In this document: positions 19,201 to 61,800 of the stretch, one piece after another | How positions within the stretch are numbered: the first letter of the stretch is position 1 | How the letters are laid out: every line of letters begins with the position of its first letter | Assembly (NCBI RefSeq): GCF_910592395.1 | Contig: NC_088318.1 | Coordinates: 17,732,349 to 17,796,348, forward strand | DNA length: 64,000 nt | Reading direction: 5' to 3' | Source: Lineus longissimus | Taxonomy: Eukaryota > Nemertea > Pilidiophora > Heteronemertea > Lineidae | Made by a program: the position numbers and the translations under genes | Notes under the pieces: generated by a model | Told to the model about the DNA's origin: nothing | Databases searched by the model: none | Seen by the model: only the letters and a program-made list of their open reading frames with translations

Positions 19201-22200
19201 TGCGAATCTGATGAAAGGTGAGCTGGTACTTTCTCCGGGCGACTGTAAACATGGTGCCTTTCAGTAACTGTCGTCTGCAGAAATGTCCTTGTGTGCATGC
19301 GTCACTCTTCCGCTCTGCCGTCGAATATCCATCAAATGTCGCAGACCCGTTCGATATACTTTCTAATTTCTTGGCTAAAGCTTGTATTTCATTTAGCGTA
19401 CCGGTAATATTTCTAAATCTGGCTAGCCTCATAGTTCCGTTTGCCATCATCCTCAGTCTATGCAGAGTCATGGATTGTAGTTCGTCTCTTGCGATCGAAT
19501 GTGTGACAAGTTCAGAAGGAGTAAATGCCAATTTACCTTGTTTTCCTGCGATTGTAATATCTTCTCCTTTTCCCGAGTCATTTCCACCATCTCCTAGCGT
19601 TAGCTCAGGCGGTTGCTTTTGTATCTGCTCTGGTTTTCTATTCCCTCCATGTTGAAGAACCAGGTTTCTGTCGAATTGAATCCTATCATCCCGGGCTGAT
19701 CGATGTAACTTAGAAGCTTGCCGGAATGCGACTATCACAATGCTAGCTGAAATCAACAAGATGGCTGCCAAGAAGAATCTGTAAAGTTGGTTCATGTTGA
19801 GATGAGAACTGCACCGGGCAGGGTCTACGAAGTCTTCCACAAAGGGTGTTTTTGCTCAAGGAGGCAGATTTTGCGTTATGGGAAAAAGGTGTGGAAAACT
19901 ACTTCCTCTCTGCTTGGTTATGAATACAATGTTTAAATGTACAAATGATTCGATCGTTTATCAAACACTTGAATGTGTGAACGACTGTGAAAGTTTCTTC
20001 CATGCCAGATCCGCGAAATACAGCAATCACAGAAGTTGTCAAACGCATCACAGAGTGAGAGAACAAGATCGAGAATATGCTTACACTGTGAAGAATGTGC
20101 ACGGAGGTGAAACCAAATGTTCTCCATGAGCGGTTGAACTTGATATAGTGATCGCATGATGCTTCTTCCAGTGACTTAACATGCAGCCAGCTACATTGAC
20201 CAAGGAAATAATACAACGAAACTTGGTTTGTCGTTTCTGACCAAAATATAGATGAAACGATTCGTTGTCGGAGATACAGTCAAACTTCTAGTTTCTGTTG
20301 TGTGTGTAGAATTCCTAGACACGGACAGCTTGAGACAATTACTCTCAATAAAACGCATTAGGCCTAACTGTCGTCGTGATGCCATCTTCACAGAGAAGTT
20401 AAAGTGAATATAAAATTGTACGATTACAAATGTTTTCGACACCATGATCCTTGCTTGTATCATATCGATTTTAACTGGTAATTAAACTTCACTTGTGAGA
20501 ACTCCAACGTTAGCCTACTCAATGTGTACACACATTTGGATTGGTGTCGTTGAAAAACGATGGTATTTCAGTTGTGACACGAGAACAAGGATAACTTGTA
20601 CTTTTCGAATTTAACGTTGAAAAGCTCTAAACAAGTGAAGAGCTTCCCGTTACCAAGGTCCCCGTCGTTCGCACACAACATCTCCCCCGGCCATCTCTCC
20701 CTGTAATCCGTTATTTCAGGTTACCAGAACGTTAGCTTGACTTGAGAGGATGGTTCCCCATGTGTATTAGTACAACGAAAAATATGAGACAGTATGTGTC
20801 TGATATACAAATGCAATATTTACTGTATACAGTAGCGAGCCATACGACGTTGCCTGTATCAGGTTTATTTACTCGGTTTGAATTCTCTATTTGCTGTAGG
20901 AAGCAACCTCGTGCTAGCAGGTTGCTACATATAATTAGTTGTTGCCAATAGGTTATCAAAATCCTGCGTCAAGATCGAAGTACAAGATTCTTTCTCCTCC
21001 GAATTTATTTCCGTGGCCGTTGCAAATGTCATAAACATGACCCGTATTGTTATTTGCGGCTTACATACCGATTCCAACATGCCCCAGAGCAACTGCTAAG
21101 ATCCAATTATAGCCTCATAATACAATCATCGTTGAAGATGCATCTGTCATGGCATGATACTCAACTCTCAAGTTATAGATAGATAAACATCTTCAATCTT
21201 TGTGCGATCTCTTCCGTCAACAGGATTAGTAAATCATAATGTATAGGTCGTATTCCTGGAAGGTTTTGGTATCTTAACTCTATGATGTTGAAATTTGGAA
21301 GTGGCTTTTGAATGAGCGTCTACTTTACTGGTTTCAATTGACGTCTACTGGCTTGGATTTTTTGATTACCAACCACTTGGACTGAGGATAGTTTTCCACT
21401 GCGGGGACTGCAGCGGGCAAAACTCCTAAAATAAGTCGCAATAGGCCTGTATGCTTTTTCGGCAATACGGAAATTTCTGATGGCGGCGAGTGGAAAGGAA
21501 AATCGTTTTTAATTGCCTTTTTTCGCCGCTTACTCGTGTGCTTGAAGAATTTCATGAACATCCCACTCAAATCATGATCATGACAAGGAAATTAAACCAT
21601 GAAGCACTGAACCAAATAGGCAAAAACGATGATGTAAGTGAAATGCACTGGTTGATATCAAATTATTTCATCTAAAGCAATTAATAAGAGTTATAAGTAT
21701 TTGATTACTTCCGTTTGCTACGCAATATGGTGGAGAGAATTCGAAGTAGAATTAACAACAATAAAAAAATCCGTTCCTGGAATGATATGTGCCGATACCG
21801 CTGTGTAAAGGAACAAGGAATCCGGCGTAGAAACTTTGTGTTTTTCTGACAAATCCATAGCTTTCCTATACACTTCATAGTGTTTTCAACGCCAAAGACT
21901 ACCTTTCCCACGTTCATCATAATTTTTACCAGTGTCAGTTTGTTCCCATCGCCAACAACCTTCGTAATACATCGCCTTCATATCAGCTGTCCACTACAAA
22001 AATTTACAATATGCACTCAAGCCGGTGTGCATACTCCACTAACCGCGGTATTCTGATCTCTCGTCCACTGCATCTTTCCCAGGTGCGAAAACTTTGATAG
22101 ATCTCGTTGTCGTATTTACAGTTGTAACAATTCATGTTTTTTCCCCTAAATACTACCCGAATACTACCTCAGGCTGTCTTCTCCATGCCATCAGTTCGCT

Positions 22201-42619: not shown

Positions 42620-42643
42620 GGAAAGCAATGCACTAGTTGACTG

Positions 42644-44312
42644 ATGATGAAGGACAGCACCATGGCAACGCCAGAGTCTACAGAAGAGAAGAGCAGCCCC
42701 TTCCAAAACATGCAAACAGAGCTGCATTCTAAAGGAGCCGTGCTGACCAAGGCGTGGTCAGATCTATTCAGTTTCATCACAAATTACCAGTGTGAGCTGA
42801 CGGTCAAAGAAAATGCTGTGGAAATTGCTGAAAGAGAAATTGAAGTGCGCAGAAAACAACTTGAGGAAATGAAGCCAGCAATGAACTGTGGTAACGAAGA
42901 GATCGAGAAGTTACAAGATGAGATTCAGCTGAAGGAAAGTCGTTTAAAACTTTCACAATCAGAACTTTCAGCAAGAGAGCAAATGTTGAAGCAATTGCAA
43001 TTGGATTTGAGTTGCAACAGAGAACTTTCAGAGAAGTTGAGATGTGAACTTTTAGAAAAGCAATCAGAACTGATGCGAAATTGTAGTGATTTAGAACAAT
43101 TGAAATCTGAATTGGTTATCAAACAAGAACAGATTCAGATTAAGGACAATTTATTAAAAAAGATGCAGTCTGAGATGATGAGGGAGAATGCTGAGTTAAA
43201 GGAGCAGTTGGAGCTGGAGAGACGGACTCTTGAATTGGAGCGAAGATCACATGAACAAACAAAGCGGATTCTAAGTGAAAACAGAGGAAAATCGGTAAGT
43301 GCTTTCTTACCTGTCACGTTCGATTTAGAGGTGAGATCAAATCCCACTCAGGAGCCTCATAGCCTAGTGGTTTGATAACTCTGCTGGCTACCACACAATA
43401 GGGCCCCGGGAAGAACCCAGGATTGTATTTCTGGATGAACCAGCATGGCTCTGGTGTCTATACCAGGGCAAGCTAAATATCCTACCAAGTGACTGACAGA
43501 TGGTGGCACTTGCCATTGTAGAATGTTGTTAATGTAATGGACTTGGCATTGATTGCTGCCTATTTTGATCCCAGTCAGTGTCAGACTTTGTATTTCAGCT
43601 TAAAAGTTTGTCTTTCTAATTGCTCTTTCCTCTATTTCAGAAATCGTATGGTGCTGGTCCATCTCAGAGTGTGATTGAGATACCTGATTCTCCACCAACG
43701 TTAGATCTGTCTGTTGAACAATCAAATTACGGACTTGCAAACATTATCTCAATGACAGAGGCACAAACGAGCCGCTCACAGTCAATGGAGGACATTTACT
43801 CGGGAATTCGGGTTTCCCTGCCCAACGCAGAAAGTGCATTATCACGGATGGCAGCTTTGAGCAGTGGTCCCTTGTCTTCACCACATACTCCTGATACTGC
43901 TATGCCCAAACATCATCATACACAATGGAGAGCAGAGTCACCAACAATAACATCTCCACGATCAAAAATTCCAAGGCAATCTCCATCATTGTCACAAACT
44001 TTACCTCAAAGTGATAGTTTTACACCCACTGGTGCTTCAAACATGAGCGATGTGTACTTTCCACTGAGTACATCACAAGAATCTCATAATCAAAGTGGTA
44101 TTGACACTTCTAATTCAATGTTTGACACTGACATCAAGATGCATGGTCAGATTTCAAGTGCAATGCCTGGGACTCCAAGTTCTGGGACCAGTGATAGCTG
44201 TCAAGCTGCCCCTGTACCAATCTCTGGGCCCATTCCCTCTGGGGCCATGTCACCAGTTAGTGGTTTCGGTATGCCATTCGGATCGTTACAACAAGAGGGT
44301 CCTGATGGAAAG
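42644..44312 (+). CDS. Constant region of a multi-isoform C2H2 zinc-finger gene (2 common exons, 441 aa)
   Basis: Exon A (42,644-43,294, 217 codons, ending SENRGKS) and exon B (43,641-44,312, 224 codons, starting KSYGAGPSQ) join in phase 0; exon B also leaves in phase 0 at GPDGK|GTAGGC. Residues about 45-215 form a long charged heptad-like coiled coil (for example EAREIEVRRKQLEEMK-type segments, then LELERRTLELERRSHEQTKR), probably a dimerisation domain. Exon B is Ser/Pro/Gln-rich and disordered, beginning with an acidic-hydrophobic SVIEIPDSPP motif of SIM-like character. It contains no zinc finger and no BTB domain. Nine zinc-finger exons downstream can each accept it. Reading on past the exon B donor gives 39 more codons to a stop at 44,432, a possible finger-less isoform. 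I do not recognise an orthologue. Confidence 0.85.
43352..43445 (+). repeat. tRNA-derived SINE fragment, family 1
   Basis: GGAGCCTCATAGCCTAGTGG (box A-like), then ...CTCTGCTGGCTACCACACAA and CGGGAAGAACCCAGG (degenerate box B), in the intron after exon A. A second copy of the same family lies at about 55,160. Confidence 0.55.
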
Positions 44313-45239
44313 GTAGGCATCCGTTTTGTTCATCAGATTAGTGAGTATCAAGAGTTTCGTATTGGTGACTTGACCCAGCTTATCACTTACACCAGGCCTG
44401 TCTGCGCGATTGGCCTGAGTCACACAGCTTAGAAAACTTGGCTTTTATAGCACAATGCATAAAACATTGCATGTGCACTCATTAATACATAGGAGGGTGG
44501 TGAGGACTTCTCAAAAATGAATTTAAAGGTAGGATCCCAAAATATTTATCAGAAAGATAGGTTCTTCGTCACCAGATACAACACTGCTGATGCTCTGAAT
44601 GGGATGTGTGACCACATGGACAAAATTCCACCTGAAAATTGGGTTTTGAATACACATCATTTGTTATTTTTGACTTTGAGACTGCAAATTCAAAAAATTG
44701 GCCTTAGTGTTCTGACCTGACATCAGGGTCGAGCTGGAACCTTGATGGTTTGAATGACTGAACAATCAGAATATTCATCAGATACTGAATCGTATTTTTG
44801 ATCTGTTTCATGAGGAGCACATCCTATTTAACACACTGCTTGAAAATGTAGGTATAGAGTTCACTTGCAAACACCTCGAGGTAATTCACAAGCACTGTTG
44901 GTGCCGATTAGCTGCTAGGATTAGTGAAATTGAGTTGGTTCTGGAATTTTTAAGAGCTGGGGGCAGAATTTCTACAAGATGTAGGTTTCAGTTTTTGGCT
45001 AGGTTGAGTGAAATTCAATTGGCTTTAGCAGTTATGTCATTCAAGTTGGTTTGAGAATTTTAGAGAAGGTTCCAGGATTTGCTTCAGGCCATGCTACATG
45101 TACAAGTTTCCACTAGAATGTTCTCAGAGTGATGTGACATCATTTGAGTCATTGGAATGTCGTAGTGTTATCCTGTTGTTTTGCTTAGTAATGTTCCATA
45201 TGGTGAGACTGACAGCGATTAGTACTCAACGGCTTGGGA

Positions 45240-45840
45240 GAAGATGATATACTGAGATAGTCAAAGGTCTGCTACTCAATATAGAACCCATCTCCGAGAA
45301 AGAGCTTCAGGAATACACAGACGACTTTCGCCGAGTGTTTAGGATTGAGCATTTAAACTATGGGCAAGTTGGCCGAGGTCAACTCGCAAGATCAAGTGGT
45401 GGAAATAGTGACAAGACTGCCATTGTTAATGCAGTTAAGTTGGAGATATGAGGCCCACAAAACCAAGCAAACTTTCAGATTTTGCCCTGAATTCGAGGAT
45501 TTCGTCATTTTGTTTGACTCAGTTTCTGGTGAGGAAAACAATCTAGTGTTCGGCAAGCAACAGATCAAGGAAATTATCGAACATTCTGTCAGACGAAGAC
45601 TGGAGTCAGCTTAGCGGTTCAAGCAACCAGCAAAGATAGCCTGGCAACTAATGCATTCAAGATGGTCAGGAGCCGTCAGGACAAGCCTGCTGACCGATAC
45701 GTCATCTAAGTTACGTAAATGTCTGATTTACAGCAAGGATCATGGAGTTGCAGCCTGCCCCTAGTTCAAGGCCATGTACCCCATGTGCCTCGAGGTACTA
45801 GTGAAAGAGAAGTGGATGATGTAGACATTTATGTCTCTCT
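45240..45840 (+). mobile_element. BEL/Pao retrotransposon gag fragment, decayed
   Basis: An 84-codon frame at 45,360-45,614 carries the DUF1759-type gag signature: a leucine-rich LP..(M)QLSWRYEA segment, then PEFEDFV, then ENN.VFGK. About 90 bases after its stop, another frame holds a CL..SKDH....C pattern and F-K-A-M, the usual zinc-knuckle-like region that follows DUF1759, with in-frame stops. No LTR, protease or polymerase is seen here. It sits in the intron between exon B and the first zinc-finger exon, in the sense orientation. Clearly non-functional. Confidence 0.65.
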
Positions 45841-45908
45841 TAGACTCAAAGTCTTCGGGGTCTGGCAGAGAATCTAACAGTAACCGTCCACTGTTTTGTA
45901 TTTTCCAG

Positions 45909-46169
45909 GAAGGTCACCCATTCCAGCCTCTCAGACTGGGAAGTACAAAATGGCCGCCTGGGAATAGTTCCATGACATCAAAACACATATATAAAAGATC
46001 CCACACAGGAATCATGTGCTCAGTTTGTGGCAAGCCATTTGCCAGTAAGAGTGCTTTAAAAATTCACTCTCGGAGTCATACTGGAGAGAACCCCTTTTCG
46101 TGTCAATATTGTCATCGCACTTTTAGGCATAAACAGAATCGAGATGTGCACCAGTTCAAGCATATGTAG
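45909..46169 (+). CDS. Zinc-finger cassette 1 (alternative terminal exon, 86 aa)
   Basis: The acceptor TTTTGTATTTTCCAG ends at 45,908; the exon starts in phase 0 with [10 protein letters not shown] and ends in TAG. It has two C2H2 fingers ([13 protein letters not shown] and [13 protein letters not shown]) joined by an HTGENPF-type linker; the ten residues before the first finger contain SHTG, a remnant of a lost upstream finger. AATAAA follows at 46,411 and 46,636. Confidence 0.82.
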
Positions 46170-46727
46170 AAACTGTCATCTTTGTCACAGTGGCAGTGAT
46201 AATGTTGGAAGACATTGTCTGGTACGTGTAGGAAGTTCCAAATGGGAAGTTAAAAACCAGAGCCGCATGGTTATGATGGTGAAAATCTATTTTCGTGATT
46301 TTCAAAATCTCATGCACACAAGTTTACAGGTTTGATTCTATTGCTGTTCTCTGTGACAAACGATTGTACCTGCAGACAAGCAGTACATGTACATGTTTAG
46401 TTGAAATAGTAATAAAGATGTGTTATAATGTTGTCTTTGCTGTTGATGTGATTTACATAGCCTTCAATGGCATCCCCAACTCAATTTCAAACCATTTTGT
46501 TTCACTTCAATTCATTGTGGTGATCACTTTAGGCAGGGGTACAACTTCTTCAGGATTTTTCCCATCCCAAATTTTGGAAAACCAGCAGCCGGTTTAATGT
46601 GAAATGCATTTTTGCATTATTGACCTGATGACCTTAATAAATACACTCTTATAAACGCTCTGCAATTACCATTATGGACTGTGAGTTGTAGATTTTGAGT
46701 AAACATTGGTTTCGTTTTGTCTTGCAG

Positions 46728-47060
46728 TCAAATGATGACCTTGCAAAGCCATCAATGAGCGGAACACCATCGCAACAACCCCGATTCAGTTGTGAAATCT
46801 GCGGACACAAGTACAATCAGCAGACAAACTTGACACATCACATGAGAAAACATACTGGACAACGCCCTTATAAATGTAATCTATGTGATAAAGCATTTAG
46901 TCGGAAGTTTGTTTTGGATAGGCATTATCTTGTTCATTCACCAGATAAGCCGTTTAGATGCTCTAGTTGTGGGAAAGGATTTCGACAGAAGCATGATTTT
47001 ATTGTGCATCAGGTCTCGCAGCATGCTGAGGCATTTATGCAAAATAAGGATGGTGTGTGA
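46728..47060 (+). CDS. Zinc-finger cassette 2 (alternative terminal exon, 110 aa)
   Basis: The acceptor TTTTGTCTTGCAG ends at 46,727; phase 0 start SNDDLAKPSM. Three C2H2 fingers: CEICGHKY..HMRKH, CNLCDKAF..HYLVH and CSSCGKGF..HQVSQH (the last with four residues between the histidines). The first linker is HTGQRPYKC; the second, HSPDKPFRC, departs from the TGEKP consensus. Ends in TGA. AATAAA lies at 47,085, only 25 bases after the stop, with a polyadenylation-like context. Confidence 0.85.
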   Translation, partial: SNDDLAKPSMSGTPSQQPRFSCEICGHKYNQQTNLTHHMRKHTGQRPYKCNLCDKAFSRKFVLDRHYLVHSPDKPFRCSSCGKGFRQKHDFIVHQVSQHAEAFMQNKDGV

Positions 47061-47319
47061 TCACTTCCACAGTTGGTATCAGACAATAAACGTGATAAAA
47101 CGAAAATGTTGAATTGACTTCAATATTTGCTCTTACTGTGCCTGTGGCTGTCAAGGCTGGTCAGGCTATAGGCTTTCTATTCCTCAGTTTGAACTTCCAC
47201 ATTTCTCAGTTTCACAGACGTAGTCCAGGAATTTTGAAATATATATAGCATTTAAGGATTCTGCTTCCCATACAAACAACTGCTGAGGAAAAACTAAAAC
47301 TGGTGCTCTTTCTTTACAG

Positions 47320-47607
47320 TCTGCACTCAATGACAACAATAAAGATGCAATTGGAGATAATCCACTTCAGTGCAGGATATGTGGCATCATCTCGCAACAT
47401 CGGCTAAACTTTGAAAACCACAGGAGGACCCATACCGGCGAACGGCCATTCGTATGTCAATATTGTGAGCGAACATTCGCAAGGAAGGACGTCATGAAAA
47501 GACACTATCGTATTCATACTGGGGAAAAACCATATGGGTGTGAGAAATGTGGCAGGTGGTTCTCGCAGAAAGGCTCACTTACTGCACATGGGTTGACACA
47601 CGTGTGA
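47320..47607 (+). CDS. Zinc-finger cassette 3 (alternative terminal exon, 95 aa, no internal start)
   Basis: The acceptor CTCTTTCTTTACAG ends at 47,319; phase 0 start SALNDNNKDAIGD, ending HGLTHV then TGA. Three C2H2 fingers: CRICGIIS..HRRTH, CQYCERTF..HYRIH and CEKCGRWF..HGLTH, with HTGERPF and HTGEKPY linkers. The exon has no useful internal start codon, so it is easily missed by start-based gene finding; it makes sense only when spliced to the constant region. AATAAA at 47,862. Confidence 0.85.
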   Translation, partial: SALNDNNKDAIGDNPLQCRICGIISQHRLNFENHRRTHTGERPFVCQYCERTFARKDVMKRHYRIHTGEKPYGCEKCGRWFSQKGSLTAHGLTHV

Positions 47608-47904
47608 GGTTTTGAGAAGATAAACCTGGTGGATGTGACAAAGACATCATGAAAAAAGGTGGTCAATGATTCTTGCACCTCATTTGTCATACGTGTACAC
47701 ATTTGGTGCTCAGAAAGTCATTTGCCCATTCTAATTCTTCATCTCAATTGAGCAGTTTAAATCTCTGCTTGCTGCGATGGGTATGTTTGTTTTGGTGTTG
47801 GTCTGTACTGGTCTTCCTAGATAAATGATGTAAAGCTGCACCTGGCCAGGTTTTGTTTTCAAATAAAAACTCTCCCTCAGACAGTGTACCTCTTGTTCTT
47901 GCAG

Positions 47905-48210
47905 CCTGTGTCCCTGAAAGAGTCACATGGCCCCCGAGGAACATTCACGCAAACCACAAACCCCTTGCAATGTTGTGTCTGTGGAGCTGTCTCAACCCAG
48001 CCTGGCCACCTGAAGGTTCACATGAGGAAACACACAGGAGAACGGCCATATAAATGTAAAATGTGCCCCAAGGCTTTCACAACGAATGGAAATCTTCAGA
48101 ATCACATCCGAGTTCACACGGGAGAGAAACCGTTCAGTTGTAAAATATGTGGGAAGAGTTTCGCTGTTCAGTGCAATTTGAGGAGCCATCAGATTACACA
48201 CATGAAGTGA
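47905..48210 (+). CDS. Zinc-finger cassette 4 (alternative terminal exon, 101 aa)
   Basis: The acceptor TCTTGTTCTTGCAG ends at 47,904; phase 0 start PVSLKESHGPRG. Three C2H2 fingers: CCVCGAVS..HMRKH, CKMCPKAF..HIRVH and CKICGKSF..HQITH, with canonical HTGERPYKC and HTGEKPFSC linkers, ending THMK then TGA. No AATAAA was seen before cassette 5. Confidence 0.85.
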   Translation, partial: PVSLKESHGPRGTFTQTTNPLQCCVCGAVSTQPGHLKVHMRKHTGERPYKCKMCPKAFTTNGNLQNHIRVHTGEKPFSCKICGKSFAVQCNLRSHQITHMK

Positions 48211-48497
48211 TTGAAACGCCTTTGATGCTTATGTGGTCATTCTGATATCCGGGACTATTGGATTTATTTGATTCTAGTGGATTAATGGACAGTTGAACCT
48301 CTTGAAGTGCCTCAACTTTAGATGTCTAAGGAGTCTGTCAGGAATGGATTGGTGAGAACTAAGACCTTATCTGTTTTGTTACTTCAGTTATTGGAAAAAT
48401 AACCAGAGTCACAGTTCGCAGAAAGAGGGTTAGAATGTTATTGGCATCTGACTTTTTGTCAACACCCTGTACAACTGAGCTATGCTTTATCTTACAG

Positions 48498-48722
48498 GAA
48501 CAGATATATCATGAAAACCGAGAACATGTAGAAGATAGATCACCAACTGGCTTTCCTTGTCCAATATGTGGTGTCACCATTCGGCAACGCTGTCATCTAA
48601 AAAGGCATATGCGGTTACATTCGGGAGAAAAGTTACATAAATGTCCAGAATGTCAGATGGGGTTTGGAAGAAAGGATCAGTTCCGCATGCACATGTTTAA
48701 AAAACACTATGGAAAAGATTGA
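48498..48722 (+). CDS. Zinc-finger cassette 5 (alternative terminal exon, 74 aa)
   Basis: The acceptor TATCTTACAG ends at 48,497; phase 0 start EQIYHENREHVED. Two C2H2 fingers: CPICGVTI..HMRLH and CPECQMGF..HMFKKH, linked by HSGEKLHKC, ending YGKD then TGA. No AATAAA was seen nearby. Confidence 0.82.
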   Translation, partial: EQIYHENREHVEDRSPTGFPCPICGVTIRQRCHLKRHMRLHSGEKLHKCPECQMGFGRKDQFRMHMFKKHYGKD

Positions 48723-48963
48723 ATCATGTATGTACCTACCTTTTGTTCTGGTTTTCAGTGTAGCCGGTCTTAGTTGGACCAAACCTCAAAGTCAAACAGG
48801 TCTCGCCCAAAATACCTTTCCTACAAGACAGCAATGATTCATGTCTCCATGACAACCTTGACAATGGTCTTTCTCCTTTTTCAGTCAAGTCAAAAATGAT
48901 GCATCGATTATCGAATACTTTATCAATGAAGTAACAAAGACTCCATTCCTTTTTATCTTGCAG

Positions 48964-49296
48964 GCAAATATCTTCTTACTACCACAGGTCAAAGGAGAGA
49001 GCAATACGCCAGGAGGACTTCTTTGCCGATTTTGCGGTGCCGACTTCGGAAAGAGTCGTTGGCTTTATGAATACCACATGAGGAAACATACAGGAGAAAA
49101 ACCATTTACATGTGAAATCTGCCAGAAATCGTTTGATATCAAAGGAAATCTCAAAGCTCACATGCGTATTCATACAGGAGAGATGCCATACAGGTGTCCT
49201 ATTTGTGAAAGGATGTTTAGGCATAGTTGTAATTTGAAGGTGCACATGCGTGGTGTGCATTCTGACATATTGGACAAACTGTCAGGACTGCAGTAG
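48964..49296 (+). CDS. Zinc-finger cassette 6 (alternative terminal exon, 110 or 102 aa)
   Basis: Two in-frame acceptors lie 24 bases apart: TTTTTATCTTGCAG (exon from 48,964, ANIFLLPQVKGE) and TACTACCACAG (exon from 48,988, VKGESNTPGG). The second gives a leader more like the other cassettes; the first has the better pyrimidine tract. Three C2H2 fingers: CRFCGADF..HMRKH (13 residues before the first His), CEICQKSF..HMRIH and CPICERMF..HMRGVH. Ends KLSGLQ then TAG; the last coding bases are part of a duplicated 47-bp segment. Confidence 0.83.
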   Translation, partial: ANIFLLPQVKGESNTPGGLLCRFCGADFGKSRWLYEYHMRKHTGEKPFTCEICQKSFDIKGNLKAHMRIHTGEMPYRCPICERMFRHSCNLKVHMRGVHSDILDKLSGLQ

Positions 49297-49372
49297 GAAC
49301 TTGGGACATTCGAGGTGGTGTGATTTCTGACATACTGGACAAACTGTCAGGACTGCAGTAGGAACTTGGGAC
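49261..49372. repeat. 47-bp direct repeat spanning the cassette 6 stop codon
   Basis: TCTGACATA(T/C)TGGACAAACT and the following 27 bases occur at 49,261-49,307 and 49,326-49,372 with one difference. Weaker partial copies (TCTGACATACTGACTTCCTG at about 49,439) follow. The first copy encodes the last residues and stop of cassette 6. Confidence 0.9.
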
Positions 49373-49602
49373 TTTTATGGTGTGCATTCTGAATTTCCTG
49401 ACTACATGTAACTGTCAGGACATTTCTTGTGTGCATTGTCTGACATACTGACTTCCTGTATATTTAGAGAAAAAGTTACTTTACAGTGATATCATTGTCT
49501 GTTACAGCTTCATCACAGGTTGGATTGAATACTTATTCCCCGTTTGTCGAACAGTTGAGTAAATATCTAAAAATCTGAATGGAACATTTTTTGTCATTAC
49601 AG

Positions 49603-49917
49603 ACTCTTTATGAAGTTCCACAGAAGGTTCCAGCAAGTGCTAACGTTCGATTGAAATGTCATGTCTGTGGTTCTACTGTTTCCTCGACGACTAACTTGAA
49701 GTCTCACATGCGACGTCATACAGGAGAAAGACCACATAAATGTCCATTTTGTGCGAAAACTTTCAGTGCTGGCTACAGCCTGACAGTGCATGTCCGCACA
49801 CATACGGGAGAAAAACCATTCAAATGCTCTTATTGTGACAAGAGGTTTACTCAGAGTACACATCGAAAATCTCACATGGTGGTCCACTTTGATAGATCCC
49901 CTGCTGATTCATCCTAA
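49603..49917 (+). CDS. Zinc-finger cassette 7 (alternative terminal exon, 104 aa)
   Basis: The acceptor TTTTTTGTCATTACAG ends at 49,602; phase 0 start TLYEVPQKVPAS. Three C2H2 fingers: CHVCGSTV..HMRRH, CPFCAKTF..HVRTH and CSYCDKRF..HMVVH, with HTGERPHKC and HTGEKPFKC linkers, ending SPADSS then TAA. AATAAA at 49,964. Its first finger, lacking the usual Phe after the second Cys, resembles the first finger of cassette 4. Confidence 0.85.
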   Translation, partial: TLYEVPQKVPASANVRLKCHVCGSTVSSTTNLKSHMRRHTGERPHKCPFCAKTFSAGYSLTVHVRTHTGEKPFKCSYCDKRFTQSTHRKSHMVVHFDRSPADSS

Positions 49918-50028
49918 AGGGATGTCTTAATTTTGATGGTTTTTATGTCATTTTTATGATATGAATAAAACGAATATTATCATAGCAACACTATAGCGTT
50001 TATTGTTTTTTTCTTTCATATTTTACAG

Positions 50029-50391
50029 TTATTGCCCACCATCACACAAAGTTCTGTCAGCCTGACAATGAGTCAAGAAATCGTGCCAACTCCCACAAAT
50101 GTTGAAGAATTATTTCCTCCTCAGAATCAAGCAAGTTTTCTTCAAAATCAAGGAGATTATACTCAAGGAACGGTTGATTATTACAGAGGCAGTGTACAGT
50201 CTGTCCAACCTCCACGAGGTAGTTCTAACAAGTGTGAGATTTGCCAGAAGACATTTACGACCAAAGGTGGTCTGACTGTACACAAGAGAATACACACTGG
50301 AGAGAAACCATTCAAATGCAAAGTGTGTGGAAAAGCTTTCTCCCAGAGTTGTAATTTGAAGGGGCACATGTTCACACACTGGAAAATGTAG
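50029..50391 (+). CDS. Zinc-finger cassette 8 (alternative terminal exon, 120 aa)
   Basis: The acceptor CTTTCATATTTTACAG ends at 50,028; phase 0 start [14 protein letters not shown] longer leader (about 68 residues, Gln/Asn/Ser-rich) precedes two C2H2 fingers, [13 protein letters not shown] and [13 protein letters not shown], joined by HTGEKPFKC. Ends HWKM then TAG. AATAAA at 50,667. Confidence 0.85.
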
Positions 50392-50794
50392 CCAGCATGT
50401 GCTCAGGGAGGGGGTGAAAGAGGAGAAGACCTTGTGTGTGGAATGGGTTTCTCTTGAAGCTGTGACCTAATGGGGAGCTAAGGCAGGGTCTGGGGGTCAG
50501 TTTGGAAGTCTAGAATGTGCAGTAGTGCCGGGGTTGGGCATCAGACTTGTTGCAGAAATGCTTTCTCTCAGCCATCATTTGTGACGGCACATTGTTTACT
50601 CCCTGGGAAATGTGTTCTAGAAGTCACTGCTTGTATCATACAACTATTAAAAGGATTGTGAAGGTGAATAAATGTTTATAGTTTATAGAAATTGCATTGT
50701 TAGTTTTATGTGAAGTTTCTGGAGTGGAGTGAATTTGATACCACTGGTCTTCTATGCATGGATGCCAATCTTTTCATTGACACCAAGCATCCTT

Positions 50795-51065
50795 GGTTGT
50801 GACGATGTCCTCACAGGCTATGGATTGGTTGTGACGATGTCCACATATTACATAGATTGGTAGAGATGGTGTCCTTCCATAGTTTGGACTGACACAGATT
50901 GTGATGTTGTCCTCACATGATATTGATAAATTGTGATGTTGTCTTCACAAGATATGGGTCGATTGTCATGGTGTCCGAGACAAGATATGGACTGGTTGAG
51001 AGAGTGTCCTCTCGTGGCACAGATCAGTTGTGATGGTGTCCTCTCTGCTTGAATGGACTGGGATA
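50795..51065. repeat. Degenerate tandem repeats, about 40 bp, between cassettes 8 and 9
   Basis: Seven or so imperfect copies of a unit containing (G)ATTG(G)TTGTGA(C/T)G(A/G)TGTCC followed by TCACA and an ATATGG/ATAGATT segment. Spacing is irregular, roughly 35-50 bases. No open frame is shared. Confidence 0.6.
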
Positions 51066-51383
51066 TGGATTAGTTAAGTGCCGTGAAATGGTCTAGATCC
51101 CCAAGATGATGCTTCTACCGAGCTGTGGGGCTCCGTCACAACTACAGAATGCCTCTGTTCAGTTTTACGGACAGACATCGTATTGGATGACAATATCCTT
51201 TGAGCACAAATTTGGGCCGAGGGGTAAAGCTAAGGTTCTTGATGTAACCGACAGTCACCACCTTGGTGTCACTAAAAGTGTATGGCATTTGGCACATATC
51301 ATACACACACTAACAACTGATGTCCTTCGATGGTTTTCATTCATTGAAAAATCTAACTGTTGTGTATTTTCTCCTCTTTCCAG

Positions 51384-51500
51384 ACAACTTCAGGAAGCAG
51401 CAAATGTTCCCGTGATCCTTGGAAGTGTTGCATCTGTGGCTCCACGTTCTCGAAGAGTTCGAATCTGCTCTTCATCCATCTTTCCCTCCACATGAGGTGA
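51384..51500 (+). CDS. Zinc-finger cassette 9, single atypical finger (38 aa)
   Basis: The acceptor TTCTCCTCTTTCCAG ends at 51,383; phase 0 start TTSGSSKCSRD. One finger, CCICGSTF...HLSLH, has 13 rather than 12 residues between the second Cys and first His. The frame ends HMR-TGA, but the bases ATGAG|GTGAGC form a strong splice donor overlapping the stop, so the exon could instead be internal and join something downstream. AATAAA at 51,621 supports a terminal exon. It could be a decaying or an incomplete cassette. Confidence 0.6.
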   Translation, partial: TTSGSSKCSRDPWKCCICGSTFSKSSNLLFIHLSLHMR

Positions 51501-51626
51501 GCACAATGGCCCTGGCCATTTCATTCTGGGACAGAAGTCACCCAAGCAACTGTGTGAAAAGTTATGTCCATTTTCTGATATTGTAACAAGGCAGTTACAA
51601 TACAGAATGATCAAATACAGAATAAA

Positions 51627-52882
51627 ACTAAAAGGTTGTAAATATATTACTTTATCTTTATTTATGATATCTGAAGCATTTAAATGGTATCACAATCATT
51701 CACACAATAATTATCATCATCAAAAGCTAAAACAAAACAGAGAATATCTTGCCCATATGGAGACAATTATAGCAAGACTAGTGTACAGTTTTGTCTCGAC
51801 CCAACATAAGCCTACTGTCCGACCCCCAGCTATATGTATCTGCCAATATTTTGGGCGGGACACATGGGGTCTCTATCTTAACACGACAATTTCAAAGTTA
51901 TCCCGGTCTAACTGAGACAAATACTACCGGAAATACAGCATCACTCAGTTGACCCTTGTTACAGAGATGGCTCTGGAGAACCCCTAAAGCTGTGGAATAT
52001 GCATTCCACGTATCATGGAGTAGTATTGTTTACATAATCAATACTTTCAATGTGATATTACTGTTGCACCAAAGCTGCTTGAAATGACCCTCAACTGGAG
52101 GCAAATCATTAATGAAAAATAGCTACAGACGTTCTCAGAAGATTCAAATTAAGTACATAATTCCAACATTCATCATGACTAAAGGATCAACGGTCCCAAA
52201 CATTTAATTTCTGCAGCGATTCGGTTTTTCACCAGACTGCTGAGACAACATCAAAATAACATCAAAACTCAGTGTAAAATGCAATGATATGAATTGAGCT
52301 TGTTCATGTGTGGTCTTAAATGTAAAACATGACAAAGAAGGATTTTCAGCCTATGGCTTTAGGCCTATCTCCACATAAGTGTTTCATTATGCATATCAAG
52401 CACAAGTTAATTGTTTGTGGGCAACATGGCATGGCCATAACATGCGACATGAAACACTCTGTGGAGGTAGGGCCTCCTTGTTGAATGATCAGTTGGTAAG
52501 AAGACAATTGAATGGCCATAAGTACATGTCAACTGAAATACTACAAATAATTTGAGAACTGCATATACGATGTATAGCACCACAAAGCATGTAAGCACAA
52601 GCTAAACTGTCCAAAGCCAAGGGTGATATCACATTTCGAGGCTCGGAAAAGTACAAATTGCTCCAGAAAAGGGCGACATTTTCTTTATTACATGTCCATG
52701 CCAAATATGCAACAGCAAGTTGCCGATAAATTCACAACTTTTCAAAGTTCACAGCACCTATCCAACCCATGAGCAGTTCCTATGTAAGTAATGATGTTGC
52801 CCTCGTAGGTGACATCTTTGTTTGTCCTATGAAGTGCGGGGACTTGCAATGGTTCTGAAGCCGCACAATCTCCTCGTAGCCT
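51627..52882. other. Convergent spacer between the zinc-finger locus and MROH1
   Basis: No gene is recognised. For MROH1 on the minus strand, AATAAA signals (plus-strand TTTATT) lie at 52,684-52,689 and near 51,657. The zinc-finger locus ends at AATAAA 51,621 on the plus strand, so the two 3' ends may be under 1.1 kb apart or may overlap. Confidence 0.55.
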
Positions 52883-55800
52883 CTAGAAGTCATACAGTAG
52901 ACTCATAGCCTCTGCCGCTTTGCATCGCACAGACAGGGATTCATCCTTCAGGAGGATTGTCAAAGCTGCAAAGAGAGACTGAAAGGTAAGCTCTTGACAG
53001 GACAATGTGAGATAGTTACCTTGAAAGTCTTTATGACTCATATTACGAAATTCTAAGGTGATCAACGTAAGGGATACCACTAAATCTAGATGCTTTGAGA
53101 TCTGTCTGTGAAATTTTTATTCTACGTATAACACTTTCCATTTTGTGATAAGCTTTTATTTTGGATACACTACACCTACCTCCACAGACGTGCTCCTTCG
53201 AGATGCTTCCATATTTATCTTTGGGAAGATTACCCAGCAGAAAGCCTGAAACAGAAGGAAATTCACATGATTTCTGAGTGTCTGGTACCAACATATTGCC
53301 TATCCACTATTGGGTGGTGTAATCTTCCTATACTCACCTACAAACATTGCAGCGTTGCTCTGAATCTCGGGCCACAAACTCTTGAAGAAGGATGCGCTGC
53401 CCATCACATAGAAGTTGACCTTGTCAGGGAAGTCACGGATCTGAAAAGGATGGACGAGTGGATCAGTCAGAAGACATTTAGAAATTCGGCCCTCAGTAGA
53501 CAGAGTAAGTAGTAGCAGTAGTTCAAGCTCATTTGTTTAGTCCAGGAGCGGGGCGCAATGCTGGTGGTTTTCCATAACCCAGATTCATAAATAATGACAT
53601 TGATTGACTTTGGTGCTCTCCAAGGGCCTAAAGGTGTTTGATGGCAAGGTTGCTCCCCTCAAGTGTTAAAGTCAGTTTGTCCCTACCTGGCACCAAGGGA
53701 AAACAGCGCAATGTTTTTCAACTCCTTTACACTGAACATGCCAAAGATGAGACAGGAGATGGAAACTTACTATAACCTTGGAAAGGTCATTCATGAATTC
53801 TCCATAATGCAGATGGGCGTTGTCCAAGAGGAACTTCTGGAACATGTTGTTGATGTCATCTGAGGCGATCAGAGGGCCAAGCAGGCGCAGAGCATATTTG
53901 CACGACTGAAACAGAAAAATGAATACATGTAGTAAAACAATCAGTGCAATGCTGCCAGGCCATTGAGGGCTTAGGCCAAGAAAGAAGGAGAAGACATTGT
54001 GTCTCTTACCTTAGTGACCTCCGTATCTGGATCATTCAGATGCATCAACAGACTGATGAAGTTGGTGTGGATCTGCTCCAGGAACGGCGCCTTTGATGGT
54101 CCGTCACCAAACCGGGACAGGTTGCCGAACAAGGTGAAGGCAGCGGCTCGTACTGCATCTTTGTCCTGAAACATCGACACAAGAGTTAACCCTAGAGTGC
54201 CAATAAAAACTCTCCCGTCCTTACTAAACATCTCTTCAACTCCGTTGGCACATACACGGCATAGCCTGACTTTTAAATGTTATCAAAACAATCACACTCT
54301 CACCTTCTCAAAGCAAGGTCGTATCCTGAGTGCCACATTGATAAGGATTGCACGTATGTTCGACTCATCAATCTGCGAGAGTATCTTGGAGAGTCCACTC
54401 ATCGCCTCCAGGGTGATGTCATCCTCGGGGTCTTCCTTATCGTCCATACCAGCCATCATCGCTGATAGGACAGTCGTTGAGAACTTCTGCACCTGAAAAA
54501 GTTAGCCAGAAGTGAGAATATATAGTTAGCAAGAAATGAGAATATATTATCTTAACAACTTTTGCTGTTACAGATCCATCGAACACACACATCCCCGGTA
54601 ATAGACCTACCTGTTCCGCTCCAACACTGGCCACATTACCAAGGCCTCGAATACACAACATCCTGACGACTTGGTTGGCATCGACGAGACGTCCCAGCAG
54701 GCTGTTCATGAGTAGCTCAACCAGGGTCATATCACCGCTGCATCTCTGGTTGATAAGCTGAAACAGAAGCACTTATAGTCAGAATTTGTTTTTTTCGATT
54801 GCAGCCAAGTACAACGTCATTTCCAAATTTACCAAAACATTTACGGTCCATCTTGAATTTTCATCAGTTATATTTGTGGGAGTGTGGCTTTAGAGTCTTA
54901 ATCAACGTGTCTTGCCACGCCATCATTGGCTTTCCACAATGATATGTTCAAACAAGGCTCATACATACCTCAGCAAAGAATGCAGCCACAACAACTCGTT
55001 GGTTTTCATAAGGACTTGATAATATGCAATTCAGACTCGCCACAATATTGGACATTTGTGCGGCCTCAAATTGCGAAATCGCCCTGCAAGAAAGACGAAT
55101 CATAAAGACAATGGAAATACTTGTCTTTACCAGTTTGAGCACGACACAGTCCGAAGTCCTAAGGAGCCACATAGCCTGGTGTTTAACGCTGCTGGCGACC
55201 ATCAAAAACCTATTGAATGTTAATAGATTTTCAAAAGAACTATCAATAGACAAGATGGTAATGGGAATGATCTACCTGGCTAATACTGTGTAGGCTTCCT
55301 GATACTTCTCTTCATCTTCAAATGCCTCCCACGCTCCTTCCTGGTCCAGCATGTCCAACACCTCATTGGCTCCACATCGAGTCAGAAACTGGTGGAACGA
55401 CTCGACAACTATGCTGAAAAAGTTAGGAATGTTAGATATAAGATTGATCATGAATTATCTAAAATTGTATGCATTCAAGGTACATGTAGTGTGACTGCCA
55501 AGTTGATCCTGGAAATTGCTTCTATGAAGGAACACATCTTTTTATTTACTTTTTTGTTTCATGCACAAATTGGTCAATGAATACTGGATTTGTGTATTTT
55601 GCTGGGATTTTCCAAAATTACAGCCATTCAACTTACCTGACTGGCTTAAATTTCGCTTCTGCAAAACTAGTGCTCCTGTTTTTCTCTTTCTTGTCCTTCT
55701 TACTTTGCTCTTTCCATTCATCCTAAAAAAGATAACACCACAAATTACATGAACATCACTTGCAAAATGGGCATATAAGACCACCCAAATGGACACCCTC

Positions 55801-58800
55801 ACCTGCCTATATCTAATCCCCTTCAGAAAAGCATGTTAAAGAGAGTGGATAAGCACACTGCATTGCAAACCACATTGAGAGTTATGTTCAACAGCGGTAA
55901 AAGTTATAGTATCTGACGGGAAATAATCAAATCCTAACCTTGATCTTAGGTGGCTTTGTCTCCACCATAGCACCCATCAGTACCACATACATCGAGAATA
56001 AGCGATGGAAGTTTTTGGCCACTTTTTCCTGGGACTCCTCAACTTTGAACATCTGACATAACCCACTGGTTGCCTGAAAAGCACGGACAGAATTAAGATA
56101 CAAAAAGCAAATAAGTAACTTGTCTCTCGCAGGCTTTCAAAGAGACACTGATGAGTGATACTATTTTGGTAAATTTTCAGTGAAAAAGATAACCAAATAA
56201 ACTTGATTAACAGTGGTGAACTCACAGCCAGTGGAGGAATGGTGGCTGTTTTCACGTTCTTCTTCTTGTCTTTAGGATCAGGGCGTTCCTCGTACGGCAG
56301 AGTACGACTCATCATGTCCAGGATGTGGTCAATGATATGCTGTAAGAGCTGACCATCTTGGGCTATCGTCTGCCAGATTTCATTTAAACCTCTGAAGTGG
56401 AAAATCAAACATATCACATGCTAGGGAGGAGTTCTGGCCATTCAAAACCTGAATCCAGGCCCAGCTTGCAGTGAAGAAGACGAATTACTATAGATGACAG
56501 TATTCATGACCTGAACTGGACTGTCCATCTTAACGGTGAATGCTGGAGTGGAATCAAATGCTCAGATTGAGATATTACAGTAAACAACTTACTCGTCAAA
56601 AGGCAGTGGAAATGACATGAGTGTCTGAAGAGCAGGCACAAGGTGATGGGCCGAGAGAACACGTATGGCTCTCAGCGTTCCGGTCCTTGTCTGGCCAAAC
56701 TGGACGTGACCAAGGTTTTCATGCAGAGTACGGATCACCCGGTCGACCTTGGGATAACAGAAAGTTAATAACAGTTGAGTGTCTGTCAAAAAGTTAATTC
56801 AAAGTGTCACAAGGCCATTGCTAGGAAGAGGAGCAAAAACCAAGGGCAGATATGAGTGAACCGTCAGGTAGGCCATTGTGGTTACAGCATCCGGCTTATA
56901 ATCAGGCAGTTGTGGGTTTGACCCTCAGAAGGATCACCAATGTCTCACCTCTGAGTCCTTGTGCAAGAAACTTTACCCTAATTTGCCTCATTCTTCAAAA
57001 AAGGCTTTAGTTTAAAAACTAAAAGACAACTTACATGTTGGAATAATTCTCCACCTCTAGATTTGATGACAGTATTAAGAACAACGCATGCTCCTGATGA
57101 ACTGTGAGACTGCACGTCCAGGAGACCTTCATAGAGGACATCTGTGAAGGGCACCAACTGGTCATGGGGGAGTTTCTTATTGAAAACCTGAAATGGAAAA
57201 CTGTATCATGAAGAATTTGGCAACAACAACTGTGGAGTGTAGTTCACAGTGGGAAGAAAGTGTCTTTTCTCTCCAATACCTATCAGTCTGCCTTACCTTT
57301 GATAAATCAGTTATGACGCTGAAGAGAACATTAGACTCTCCTTTCTTTAACCTTTCCTTCAGTGTTGGCAACGCATCAACCATGGGATCCTTGTGGGCTT
57401 CAGGATGGCCTGCAATCAATAAACAAGTCTGGTGAATCCACTACTTTTGTTCCCAACCATACAGTGCTAAAACATATGTAGAATAGTTGCTCAAGTTGTT
57501 GTGTCAGGGTCTACAATGACACCTTGGGGACTGTGAGAAAGCTAAGAAATAACAAGAAGGATGAGAGGAACATTACCTTCATATCTCTGTAGTATCTTCA
57601 GTATGACCTGGACACAGTCTATGGCCATTTGCCTGACTAGGAGACTAGGATCGGTGCATCGGGGAGCCAGGCGAGCCAGCAGGGCACCTGCATCCGAGAA
57701 ATGCTCAGGCAGCTGAAAAATATGAGAAATCTCTTGATAGAGAGTTTCCTGGCTGCCAGTCAATGGTCACTTGAACACAACTATCAGCTACTGAATGATA
57801 AAGGAATCCACTTAAAGTAACCAATTAACTTCAACTAACTTCAACAAACATTATAACCAATGTAATGAAACTTAAGAACTGGAACAATTCCTCAGAAAGA
57901 GGGACGATACAAGGTCCTAAATAGGTGTTTCTAGCAGTATTTGTGGCAATTATTTTTAAAGCAACGTTCAAGAAGAAGAGGGAGCTCTCCATGTAGTGAG
58001 ATTGGTGCATTCTAAGAAGTACTGGATGAAATATGTCAACCTCATAAACTGTCTGGTAATATAGTTTAGTACTGATAGATTAGATTGGCAGTGGTAGTTT
58101 AGTAAACAACAACAAGTTACTTAAGCACCGGGTGTCACAAGCAAAGTCAGATAAACCAAATTGGGGGTATGCAAATGATCTATAAGCTGCCTCTGAACCA
58201 GTTGCTGCTGACCTCAACACCATCTGCACCACACGCCACAAGTTACAAATGACAACTAAAAATCAAAATACAATGAACACACATTTGTACGTACACCTAA
58301 AACGTAAATGTATATCTGTTACGAAAAGCTCCAAATAGATGAGAGAAAAGAAGCAAAACTCAGCCACCTGCCAGTCAAACGGTACAATAAACTCCAAACT
58401 TATGGTCATATTTCAATTTTGCCTCATCACAACTGTGAGAAAAACTGTTTAAAACTTGATGGTTACACTACATCAGTTTTTTTCAAATCAGATTCATAAA
58501 TGGACGCATAAGGTTGGAGTTTGCTGTGTTAGTAAGTACATGTATTGGGACTAAGGACTTACACGGTCTGGAGTGACGGATGTCATCATTAGCTATCAAC
58601 AAAATGTAAACATATCAAATAAGGGAATTTGAAAGCACGAATATGAAATCAAACTTCCACACCTGTGGCTGTGACATGTCACAGCAGGAATAACCAGAGT
58701 GATTTGACATATCTTGTGAACTGTTCTTGCATGTCTTATGCATTTCGGCAAGTTTGGACTTGCTTTCTATTCCGGTACATGTATCATATCGAAATGTCAA

Positions 58801-61800
58801 AAGGCACACTGTCCAGCGTCACGGCAATGAAGCAAAGTCTGAGAGCAGTATCCACGGCCCGAGAAAATACCTTATGAAATAGATCAGACTGAAATTTAAG
58901 TAGTTTATTCAAAACGACTTACCCCCACCCCCATTTTCATGTTCTCCAGGTAGGTGTTCAGTAGTGTGTGCATGCCCGTCATGGCCCGGTCTCTCTCATG
59001 GTCATTCACACTCAGAAGCCAGGGTGTTAAATGCTGAAAATAACAATGAAATAATGCTTAGTGAGGACTTACTAAGGAGGGTGATGGATGGGGAGGGGAG
59101 GGTATACTGAAGGCTCTGTAGTGTACAATGGACAAAACATTTGTCCAACACATGTAGTGTATCTCCATGGTATCTCGCTGTACACCTGTAGTGTACATCG
59201 ATGTATGCAGCAAAGTTTCCTACATTAAAGCTCTCATTTATTTCTGAACCATGAATGCATTCTTATTTCAGCCTTGAGAGCCCACACAGTCATCAAAAAC
59301 CAGAAGTCGAGTTAACTTCCTTACCTTTGTTATTTCCTCCAGGCCACTAGGGGTTGTATCCTTTAACAGCAACTGACGTAACAAGTCATTCAAGGCTTCA
59401 AGTGTCGCTTCCATCAATACCTCCTTCTCAAGATGCTCATCATACGATTCCATCTCCTTGGCTTTCTTGGTCGGGATGCCATCTGGTGGCAGTTGGTAGA
59501 CACAGTCAATGGAGGTTTTCATTAAGTCGTACACATCTGCCTCATTAAGTTTCGGGTCCAATTTACTGAGCACTGTTAAGGTTATTGATGCTTCTAAACC
59601 TTGCAGCCTAGCAGGAGATCAACAAACCCCATCCTTGGGGGAACACTTGGCACTAATGACCGAGCTCGTGTTGAGTGTGTGAGGAGAAGAGCATATGACT
59701 GACTCTGATATTCAAGAATGAACGAACCCCTGGCCCTGAACAATGTTAACGTTAAGGGAAAACAATCAAACTCAACAAAAGGATACACAAGTGTAGCACA
59801 GGCCGCTAGCGCTAAAGCTCTTGTCTCCGATGTCAGAGCATGGATTGTTTCAGACTTAAGGTAATTCGTTAGGTATGAAAGTAGTTCGCCCCTCTTGGAG
59901 AAGATGTGTTGGGTCTGTAGATGGGTCGGATGGAGGGCTTTCCCTATCAGGTCAATGGCTCGGATTAGGTTCTGCTTCACGGATATATCCTGAAATAGTT
60001 AATGAAGGTATCAAGAATGCATCTTGCAAACTGATAACATTCTCAGCTCACCCATACTTACATGTACATGATAGTGAGATTTTGCAAGCCTAGTATGTTT
60101 AAGTTATATCTTGTGAGCTTCTAAAATCGTCAAATCAGAATATCACATACATGTTGTTCTGCAGAAGAGATCATGACAAGCAGCTGAACAATTTTGTGAA
60201 AGATTTCAAACTTACTTTGACTGATGTGAAGTGAGGGTTGATAGTCCTAAGGATGCTGGCTTCTATTCTAGAAACGATCAAGTTGGGAGGTGCATACAAA
60301 GTAACATAGCCATAGCACAACATCAGTGTCGATTTCATTTGTTCTGTTCCTGCATCTCCTGAATCTTTGAGGTCCTGAAATAGAAACTCATTGTATCAAT
60401 ATAAAGCTTTAGATAATGCCAGACCGTCACTCATAACAACTACAGATTTCCTGCATAGATGATAGAGCTGAAATTTAAGCAAATTGAATGTTTGAAGTTC
60501 AGCTTATTCAAGACAAGGGCTGTGGTCTCTATTTGACGTTAGTTGTGGAATAGAAGTTTAAACGAAAGCTAAAATCTACCTTGAAGAATCCCATGATTCC
60601 ACTTGATTTCCTCGCTATGTCTGTCCTGGCCACGCCCTCCAGTTTCGTAAGGACTGTATCAATATGTGACGAGGCAGCAAACCCCATCGATATTGCACAG
60701 CCCTCCCGCTCCACCTGACTACTGTGTTTCACAGTGCTGAAGACCAGGTCCAAAGTTTTGCTAACGAAGTCTTTCTTGGTTGACTTTCGCATCACCACAC
60801 CCAAACACTTATAGAGGAAATTCTGGAAGAGCAGAACCAAAATTAACCTTTGGTGGCTTCTTTTTCTGCATTCAGTCAGCCTTTCACTTCATTGTCAGAG
60901 GAGTCAAATAGACAATTCTTTTGACAACAATACGTATATGACAAACAAGAAAGAAAACCAACCTTCTCTTCAGGCGCGTTGTAGTACAGTTGGATCTGTT
61001 CACCCATCGACTCCCCAAGCTCGCACACCCAATCCTCACTGTCAACTTCATCAAGAGACTTGGATAACATCTTCAGTAATAAATCCTCCCAGTTTTTCTG
61101 AGACCATTTTGTCTCATCCTCAGCAGCATCTGGAGTAAAAGTAACAGGCCTATATAACGATGGTCAACATAATCAGCTTCCTTTGCATCTTTTGACCCAG
61201 CATCTCATTAAAGCCGTGAATCCATCACTCGGGAGGTCATGAGCTTATCAAGTGATGCTTTAAGCTTTGCAATTTTTTTACCTGGCCAACTGAAACTTCT
61301 TCAATGGACCACGATATGAACCATGGCAAACCCACAGATATATTCCAGTCAAACATTGAAACTATAGAATCCATTCTTGAATTTCAACGCAAGTTTCACA
61401 TCAACGTGCTTACCTTCTAAGAACTGGATAAGCTTTGGAATGACAGTGTCCCATAATACAACTAGATTTTCATGAAGGTTTGGTGACAAGGCTTTCATGG
61501 CTTCCAAAACATGAGGCCCTCGGTTGTTACCAGTTAGAGGACAGCCTACCATCACCTAGAAAATGTGGGAAACATGACACGTAAACATCTTGAGGAAACT
61601 GAATTTCAGGTTGAAAGATCAGGTTGGTGGAGATATTCATCAAGACAGAATACTCACCATGAACCTTGAAATCAATGCTGTGGGTTTTGGAATGTTTACT
61701 GAAAAACAAAATGTTTGAATAAATTTAGTACTACATATTAAACTTGAAACAGATTGGAGAGATTGCCCATTATTAACACATAGATTTTGGCATCTTCACA

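Follow-up and report, generated by a model that had tools for sequence, protein, structure and literature searches.

Transcription-factor loci that exchange their DNA-binding end by means of alternative 3′ exons are best known from insects, where the constant half carries a BTB domain. In Drosophila, lola is a BTB zinc-finger locus with 20 isoforms, 17 of which have different C2H2 ends (PMC11426971), and mod(mdg4) combines four common exons with 31 variant exons, 27 of the variants bearing FLYWCH (PMC9723646). Here we consider a 64 kb stretch of chromosome 11 of the nemertean Lineus longissimus (17.73–17.80 Mb, in a genome of 391 Mb; hereafter the window), which contains two common exons followed by nine small zinc-finger exons, or cassettes. 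Like lola, this locus has constant N-terminal exons and alternative C-terminal zinc-finger exons; unlike lola, which is a single BTB locus, the Lineus system has a predicted coiled coil without BTB and extends over at least 26 loci. With mod(mdg4) the family shares a common part that faces tens of variable ends, some of the Lineus ends also being non-C2H2, and it differs in using C2H2 rather than FLYWCH, in having no BTB and in the shared strand of its qualifying cassettes at the loci read. The Lineus system works like lola and mod(mdg4), yet is not a member of that BTB group. The KRAB-, ZAD- and FiNZ-zinc-finger families resemble it in joining a lineage-specific N-terminal domain to expanding C2H2 repertoires (PMC10547256), whereas in Lineus the diversity comes from shared loci whose alternative exons mostly carry few fingers.

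The reading that we favor, with a probability of roughly 0.88, is that the locus encodes nemertean transcription factors through alternative 3′ exons. The constant half, probably a coiled-coil dimerisation rod followed by a disordered regulatory tail, would be encoded by exons A and B; the donor of exon B would join one downstream cassette, and each cassette would supply its own fingers and stop codon. One coiled-coil half with swappable ends would thus yield a set of proteins that share a partner domain and differ in DNA recognition. The family of at least 26 loci would have arisen through duplication of whole loci and of cassettes, with purifying selection acting. We infer the dimerisation, the DNA binding and the choice of ending by cis-splicing.

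First, the layout of the window locus, which lies entirely on the plus strand, is that of a constant half followed by apparently interchangeable ends. Exon A (42620..43294, with its ATG at 42644) encodes residues 1–217, comprising an N-terminal core and a long helix, between an acceptor TTTCAG/GG, placed at 42619/42620 from sequence alone, and a donor TCG/GTAAGT. Exon B (43641..44312) encodes residues 218–441, which are predicted to be disordered and include the motifs VIEIPDSPPTLDLS, FPLS and PVPISGPIP; directly 3′ of it stands a conserved intronic donor element, GTAGGCATCCGTT (44313..44325). Translation of the two exons gives 441 residues with no fingers, as claimed in a preliminary description of this DNA, which had also placed all nine downstream cassettes correctly, each with an acceptor, an opening in phase 0, one to three C2H2 fingers and a stop. 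These are cassette 1 (45909..46169, two fingers), cassette 2 (46728..47060, three fingers, with AATAAA at 47085), cassette 3 (47320..47607, three fingers), cassette 4 (47905..48210, three fingers), cassette 5 (48498..48722, two fingers), cassette 6 (48964..49296, three fingers, with a second in-phase acceptor at 48988), cassette 7 (49603..49917, three fingers), cassette 8 (50029..50391, two fingers) and cassette 9 (51384..51500, one finger, with a donor AG/GTGAGC overlapping its stop and AATAAA at 51621), the last being ambiguous between a terminal and an internal exon. The total of 22 fingers given earlier is reproduced by a regular expression count. A strict C2H2 pattern has no further match on either strand of the 64 kb, and a loose one, applied to 40–55 kb of the window, adds a few non-canonical matches (e.g., 52693–52770). 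The Pfam model PF00096 (zf-C2H2) scores above its cut-off in all eight cassettes scanned (1–8). A 65-nt tandem duplication (49250–49372) takes in the last part of cassette 6, stop codon included, and two arrays of 32-nt tandem repeats (50793–50991) lie between cassettes 8 and 9. Upstream of cassette 1, the intron contains broken frames (44493–45614) that by eye resemble retroelement gag remnants; three of these frames were scanned, with no Pfam match.

Second, one of the nine junctions is represented in an annotated protein, and its paralogues follow the same pattern. P0001 (RefSeq, “transcription factor Sp8-like isoform X3”; 10 member sequences in its cluster) equals exon A, exon B and cassette 7 letter for letter, beginning with MMKDST as exon A does and confirming the acceptor at 49603; cassette 7 is the only cassette seen to follow exon B in an annotated protein, and the annotation therefore passes over six others. 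Among the 16 paralogous loci with at least two isoform clusters, 15 have isoforms that are identical up to one junction and different thereafter, the junction ending in DGK in 11 of them, and the sixteenth (P0035/P0049) departs from this pattern. NCBI isoform models usually rest on transcript alignments. The earlier proposal of alternative terminal exons is supported by P0001, by the paralogue isoforms and by the chromosome 5 geometry described below, and we infer the remaining eight junctions of the window locus between exon B and a cassette.

Could the cassettes instead be independent small zinc-finger genes, or decayed copies, lying by chance behind a coiled-coil gene? C2H2 genes do cluster in animals (PMC3701560), and a Met stands between the acceptor and the first finger in window cassettes 1, 2 and 8, an upstream in-frame Met is found in 5 and 7, and 50 of 85 chromosome 5 cassettes have a Met inside the exon. 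The frame before the first finger contains no Met in cassettes 3, 4, 6 and 9 (4/9). Independent genes would also leave unexplained that P0001 links exons A and B with cassette 7, and that the chromosome 5 cassettes are co-oriented with the common exons, have their best acceptor predominantly in phase 0 (78/90) and show conserved acceptors (T at −5), which together make this explanation highly improbable.

Third, the same geometry recurs on chromosome 5 (23.94 Mb, as against 19.19 Mb for chromosome 11; PMC8593623). The chromosome 5 contig read as DNA has 23,929,194 bases and that of the proteins 23,943,388, a slight difference between assembly versions. A genome scan with PF00096, in which 150 of 3918 candidates were scored, pointed to finger clusters there, from which stretches of 200 kb (11.40–11.60 Mb) and 40 kb were picked for finger density, so that these 240 kb were not sampled at random. 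Five loci, L02, LX, L12, L22 and L05, lie in the 200 kb, LX being without a representative protein at ≥97%; the 40 kb hold endings of L07 together with loci LY and LZ, which have no representative at 97%. A phase-0 acceptor is present in 116 of the 136 C2H2 frames (85/105 in the larger stretch and 31/31 in the smaller), the 85 being distributed as 22 in L02, 11 in LX, 6 in L12, 17 in L22 and 29 in L05. Phase-1 and phase-2 candidates occur in 34 and 28 of the 105 frames, respectively; the best acceptor is in phase 0, 1 and 2 in 78, 6 and 6 of 90 (200 kb; binomial P = 1.4e-25, a value overstated because duplicated cassettes are not independent) and in phase 0 in 30 of 31 (40 kb). All qualifying cassettes (85/85 and 31/31) are co-oriented with the common exons; for L07, whose common exons lay beyond the DNA read, the strand agreement holds as far as seen. 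Including the window, 125 cassettes were counted in nine loci. T occupies acceptor position −5 in 82 of 85 cassettes, partly through a bias of the pyrimidine filter, and AACTGA lies upstream of 17 of 85 acceptors; 12 of its 18 occurrences fall between −29 and −34, and it resembles a branch point common to recent duplicates. LX and L22, as well as L02 and L05, are oppositely oriented loci with related cassettes (four reciprocal pairs in each case), as if whole loci had been duplicated in inverted form.

The endings of one locus reach up to about 34 kb past exon B, many of the intervening cassettes being absent from the cluster representatives, and arrays that extend over tens of kilobases raise the question of joining in trans, with cassette pre-mRNAs transcribed separately. 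Trans-splicing is known at mod(mdg4) and, alongside cis-splicing, at lola (PMC11426971, PMC9723646, PMC1947980). The conserved intronic element behind the exon B donor would also suit such a mechanism. In the window and five chromosome 5 loci, the intron after exon B opens with GTAGGNATCMGTT; that of LY starts with GTAGGGATCAGTT, and the nearest match in LZ is GTAGGGATAAATT. Within the 200 kb, GGAAAGGTAGG is confined to exon B ends, and GGAAAGGTAGGNATC is matched 23 times genome-wide (15 on chromosome 5, one in the window and seven elsewhere) against one for the reversed control. The extended donor element GTAGGNATC is common to the loci and to environmental fragments described below, and the four loci compared have plain GTAAGT at the exon A donor. 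A comparable conserved intron element reportedly exists in mod(mdg4). As far as seen, however, each of the 116 qualifying chromosome 5 cassettes, like all nine window cassettes, shares the strand of its common exons, so that cis-splicing suffices, and joining in trans appears quite unlikely. A docking or selector pairing between the exon B intron and the nine acceptor regions was tried and rejected, the duplex energies being no better than those of random window stretches (rank p of 0.11–0.96 for the first 25 nt and 0.13–0.67 for the first 60 nt).

Fourth, alternative endings on a constant half appear to be a property of a whole family, and the preliminary description overlooked that its locus is one of at least 26. 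A protein search with the common part (E 1e-3) returned 65 clusters, 64 of them from Lineus with 185 member sequences; with 63 of these 64 on the single contig of chromosome 5 and five loci within 200 kb, this is a clustered, lineage-specific expansion. The proteins group into 23 loci, 22 on chromosome 5 plus that of the window, with P0053, P0062 and P0064 divergent, and the addition of LX, LY and LZ from the DNA brings the number to at least 26. The window locus is the chromosome 11 member; the remaining family loci were found on chromosome 5. A profile search with ten common parts added only the environmental fragments P0066–P0072, and a search with a 67-residue core gave 56 candidates, 45 at E 10 or better, all from Lineus. 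In these protein searches no relative outside Lineus emerged apart from eight environmental fragments, and none from any other named animal; the two broad searches scored about 8000 candidates sharing most words and limited by length, a procedure that distant relatives can escape.

The eight fragments (P0065–P0072, labelled jgi) are 57–81% identical to Lineus paralogues and comprise four exon A frames, whose boundary was judged by eye, and four exon B frames, which read through at the same donor. In a tree of exon A, P0066 (100/100), P0067 (100/100) and P0068 (96/86) group with particular Lineus loci, P0069 being unplaced, which suggests that several loci are older than a nemertean species split. 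No description of the Lineus family seems to exist in the literature searched, which covered few subscription papers and included PMC7618685, and the main text of PMC10547256 lacks the words Nemertea, Lineus and longissimus.

The common half itself fits a coiled coil, as judged from periodicity and helix prediction. Its hydrophobic residues recur with a 3.5-residue periodicity that none of 2000 shuffles matched in strength (exon B, P = 0.07), and an AlphaFold model built with 21 sequences predicts a helix of 196 residues (19–214), low confidence, indicative of disorder, over nearly all of 215–453, and three fingers. Pfam scans found no family in exon A or exon B at E 0.1 and no BTB at E 0.01 in ten common parts, where only weak matches appeared, each in at most two of the ten members; KRAB, SCAN and ZAD were likewise absent from the scans of both sets. 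Since no Pfam domain is found in the shared half, BTB is taken to be absent, and the earlier choice of a coiled coil over BTB agrees with these predictions. The KRAB-like and SCAN-like names given by NCBI probably reflect the fingers only. In sequence searches of solved structures, exon A alone had zero matches, and a profile gave only weak coiled-coil matches (best E 0.016). In a fold search, the modelled fingers match structures of Zif268 and CTCF; with the whole model, all matches among the 50 listed of 290 are zinc-finger structures. In exon B, VIEIPDSPPTLDLS or a close form of it occurs in 18 of 22 Lineus representatives and all four environmental exon B frames. In sequence this motif resembles both a SUMO-interacting motif and the CtBP-binding PxDLS motif, and is a candidate for either.

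What might so many endings be for? Family-wide, 135 distinct contact quartets (positions −1, 2, 3 and 6) occur among 138 canonical fingers. Eight reciprocal-best cassette pairs (from L02/L05 and LX/L22) are under purifying selection, with dN/dS of 0.21–0.58 (pooled 0.35), pairs having been retained only at ≥55% identity, which favors conserved ones. Differences fall on 26 of 64 contact positions, 55 of 176 other non-structural positions and 3 of 96 structural positions. These values bear on whether the system is a genome-defence repertoire of KRAB- or FiNZ-like kind that tracks transposable elements, rather than a developmental switch. Lineage-specific, expanding C2H2 repertoires have been tied to transposon control (PMC10547256) and Mod(mdg4) variants repress HeT-A (PMC9723646), and two Lineus endings carry Tc5-transposase-type domains (P0004 and P0005). 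The window arrays are short, however, with one to three fingers, and the purifying selection on the eight pairs, together with a contact-residue change that is not significantly faster, does not favor such tracking, so that a defence role seems somewhat doubtful. The domain in question is a DNA-binding one, PF03221 (E 8.6e-9 in P0004 and 2.9e-16 in P0005, of loci L02 and L05), apparently captured as terminal exons from transposases.

Several observations weigh against the simple form of our proposal. The isoforms are automatic models, and the evidence here comes from annotated proteins and DNA alone. The AlphaFold model is a single chain and is silent on dimers. In the eight pairs, change at contact positions is not significantly faster than at the other, non-structural positions of the fingers (P = 0.22). 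In the 200 kb, 20 of the 105 frames fall below the acceptor threshold, one of them antisense, and 6 of the 64 Lineus clusters (P0004, P0005, P0042, P0056, P0061 and P0063) end without C2H2 fingers. The endings of P0004 and P0019 are each built from two serial exons, so that one-exon endings are not universal. They are two of the 10 representative endings placed in the 200 kb, the other eight being single-exon. As for downstream donors, said earlier to be confined to the last cassette, the best score in cassettes 1–8 is at most 3.1, compared with 4.9 for the donors of exons A and B; that of cassette 9 reaches 6.3, among the top 6 of 3691 GT sites. Four candidate continuation exons for cassette 9 were listed, none with a C2H2 finger. 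Polyadenylation is mixed: behind the cassettes of the window, AATAAA is enriched (7 vs. 2.2 expected, P = 0.008) and present in six of the nine intervals, but it is lacking in the other three and is not enriched after the 85 chromosome 5 cassettes (17 sense, 28 antisense, 27% expected). Polyadenylation sites of their own are therefore at most putative for the cassettes, and as a general rule such signals find no support on chromosome 5.

If the proposal of alternative 3′ exons is true, the Lineus loci would represent an independently built form of the insect design outside the phylum of the insects, with many more loci and another partner domain, and would be evidence that designs of this kind arise repeatedly. 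They would offer a test bed for how one donor picks among tens of terminal exons and for the birth, retention and loss of cassettes, and, for one more class of expanding zinc-finger genes, an N-terminal domain specific to the lineage. More tentatively, and with the balance tilting against it, nemerteans may have a combinatorial system of their own, in which several hundred ends (a figure extrapolated from stretches chosen for finger density), spread over at least 26 loci and combined with a single coiled-coil partner domain, would allow dimers within and between loci and hence very many composite specificities, possibly for cell identity or mobile-element control, with the conserved intronic element that follows exon B steering which ending is used.

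Elsewhere in the window, an Rfam scan gave no match at the gathering score and no tRNA was found. Aquaporin exons (MIP, PF00230) lie at 13185–13823 and 24291–24815, and a Maestro-type HEAT-repeat gene on the minus strand (52883–59998; PF23210, E 4.8e-9 at 59594–59995) is apparently convergent with the finger locus. An uninterrupted minus-strand frame of 589 amino acids (18086–19855) has a match to beta-mannosyltransferase (BMT, PF12141; residues 339–454, E 4.3e-11), which is unexpected in an animal.

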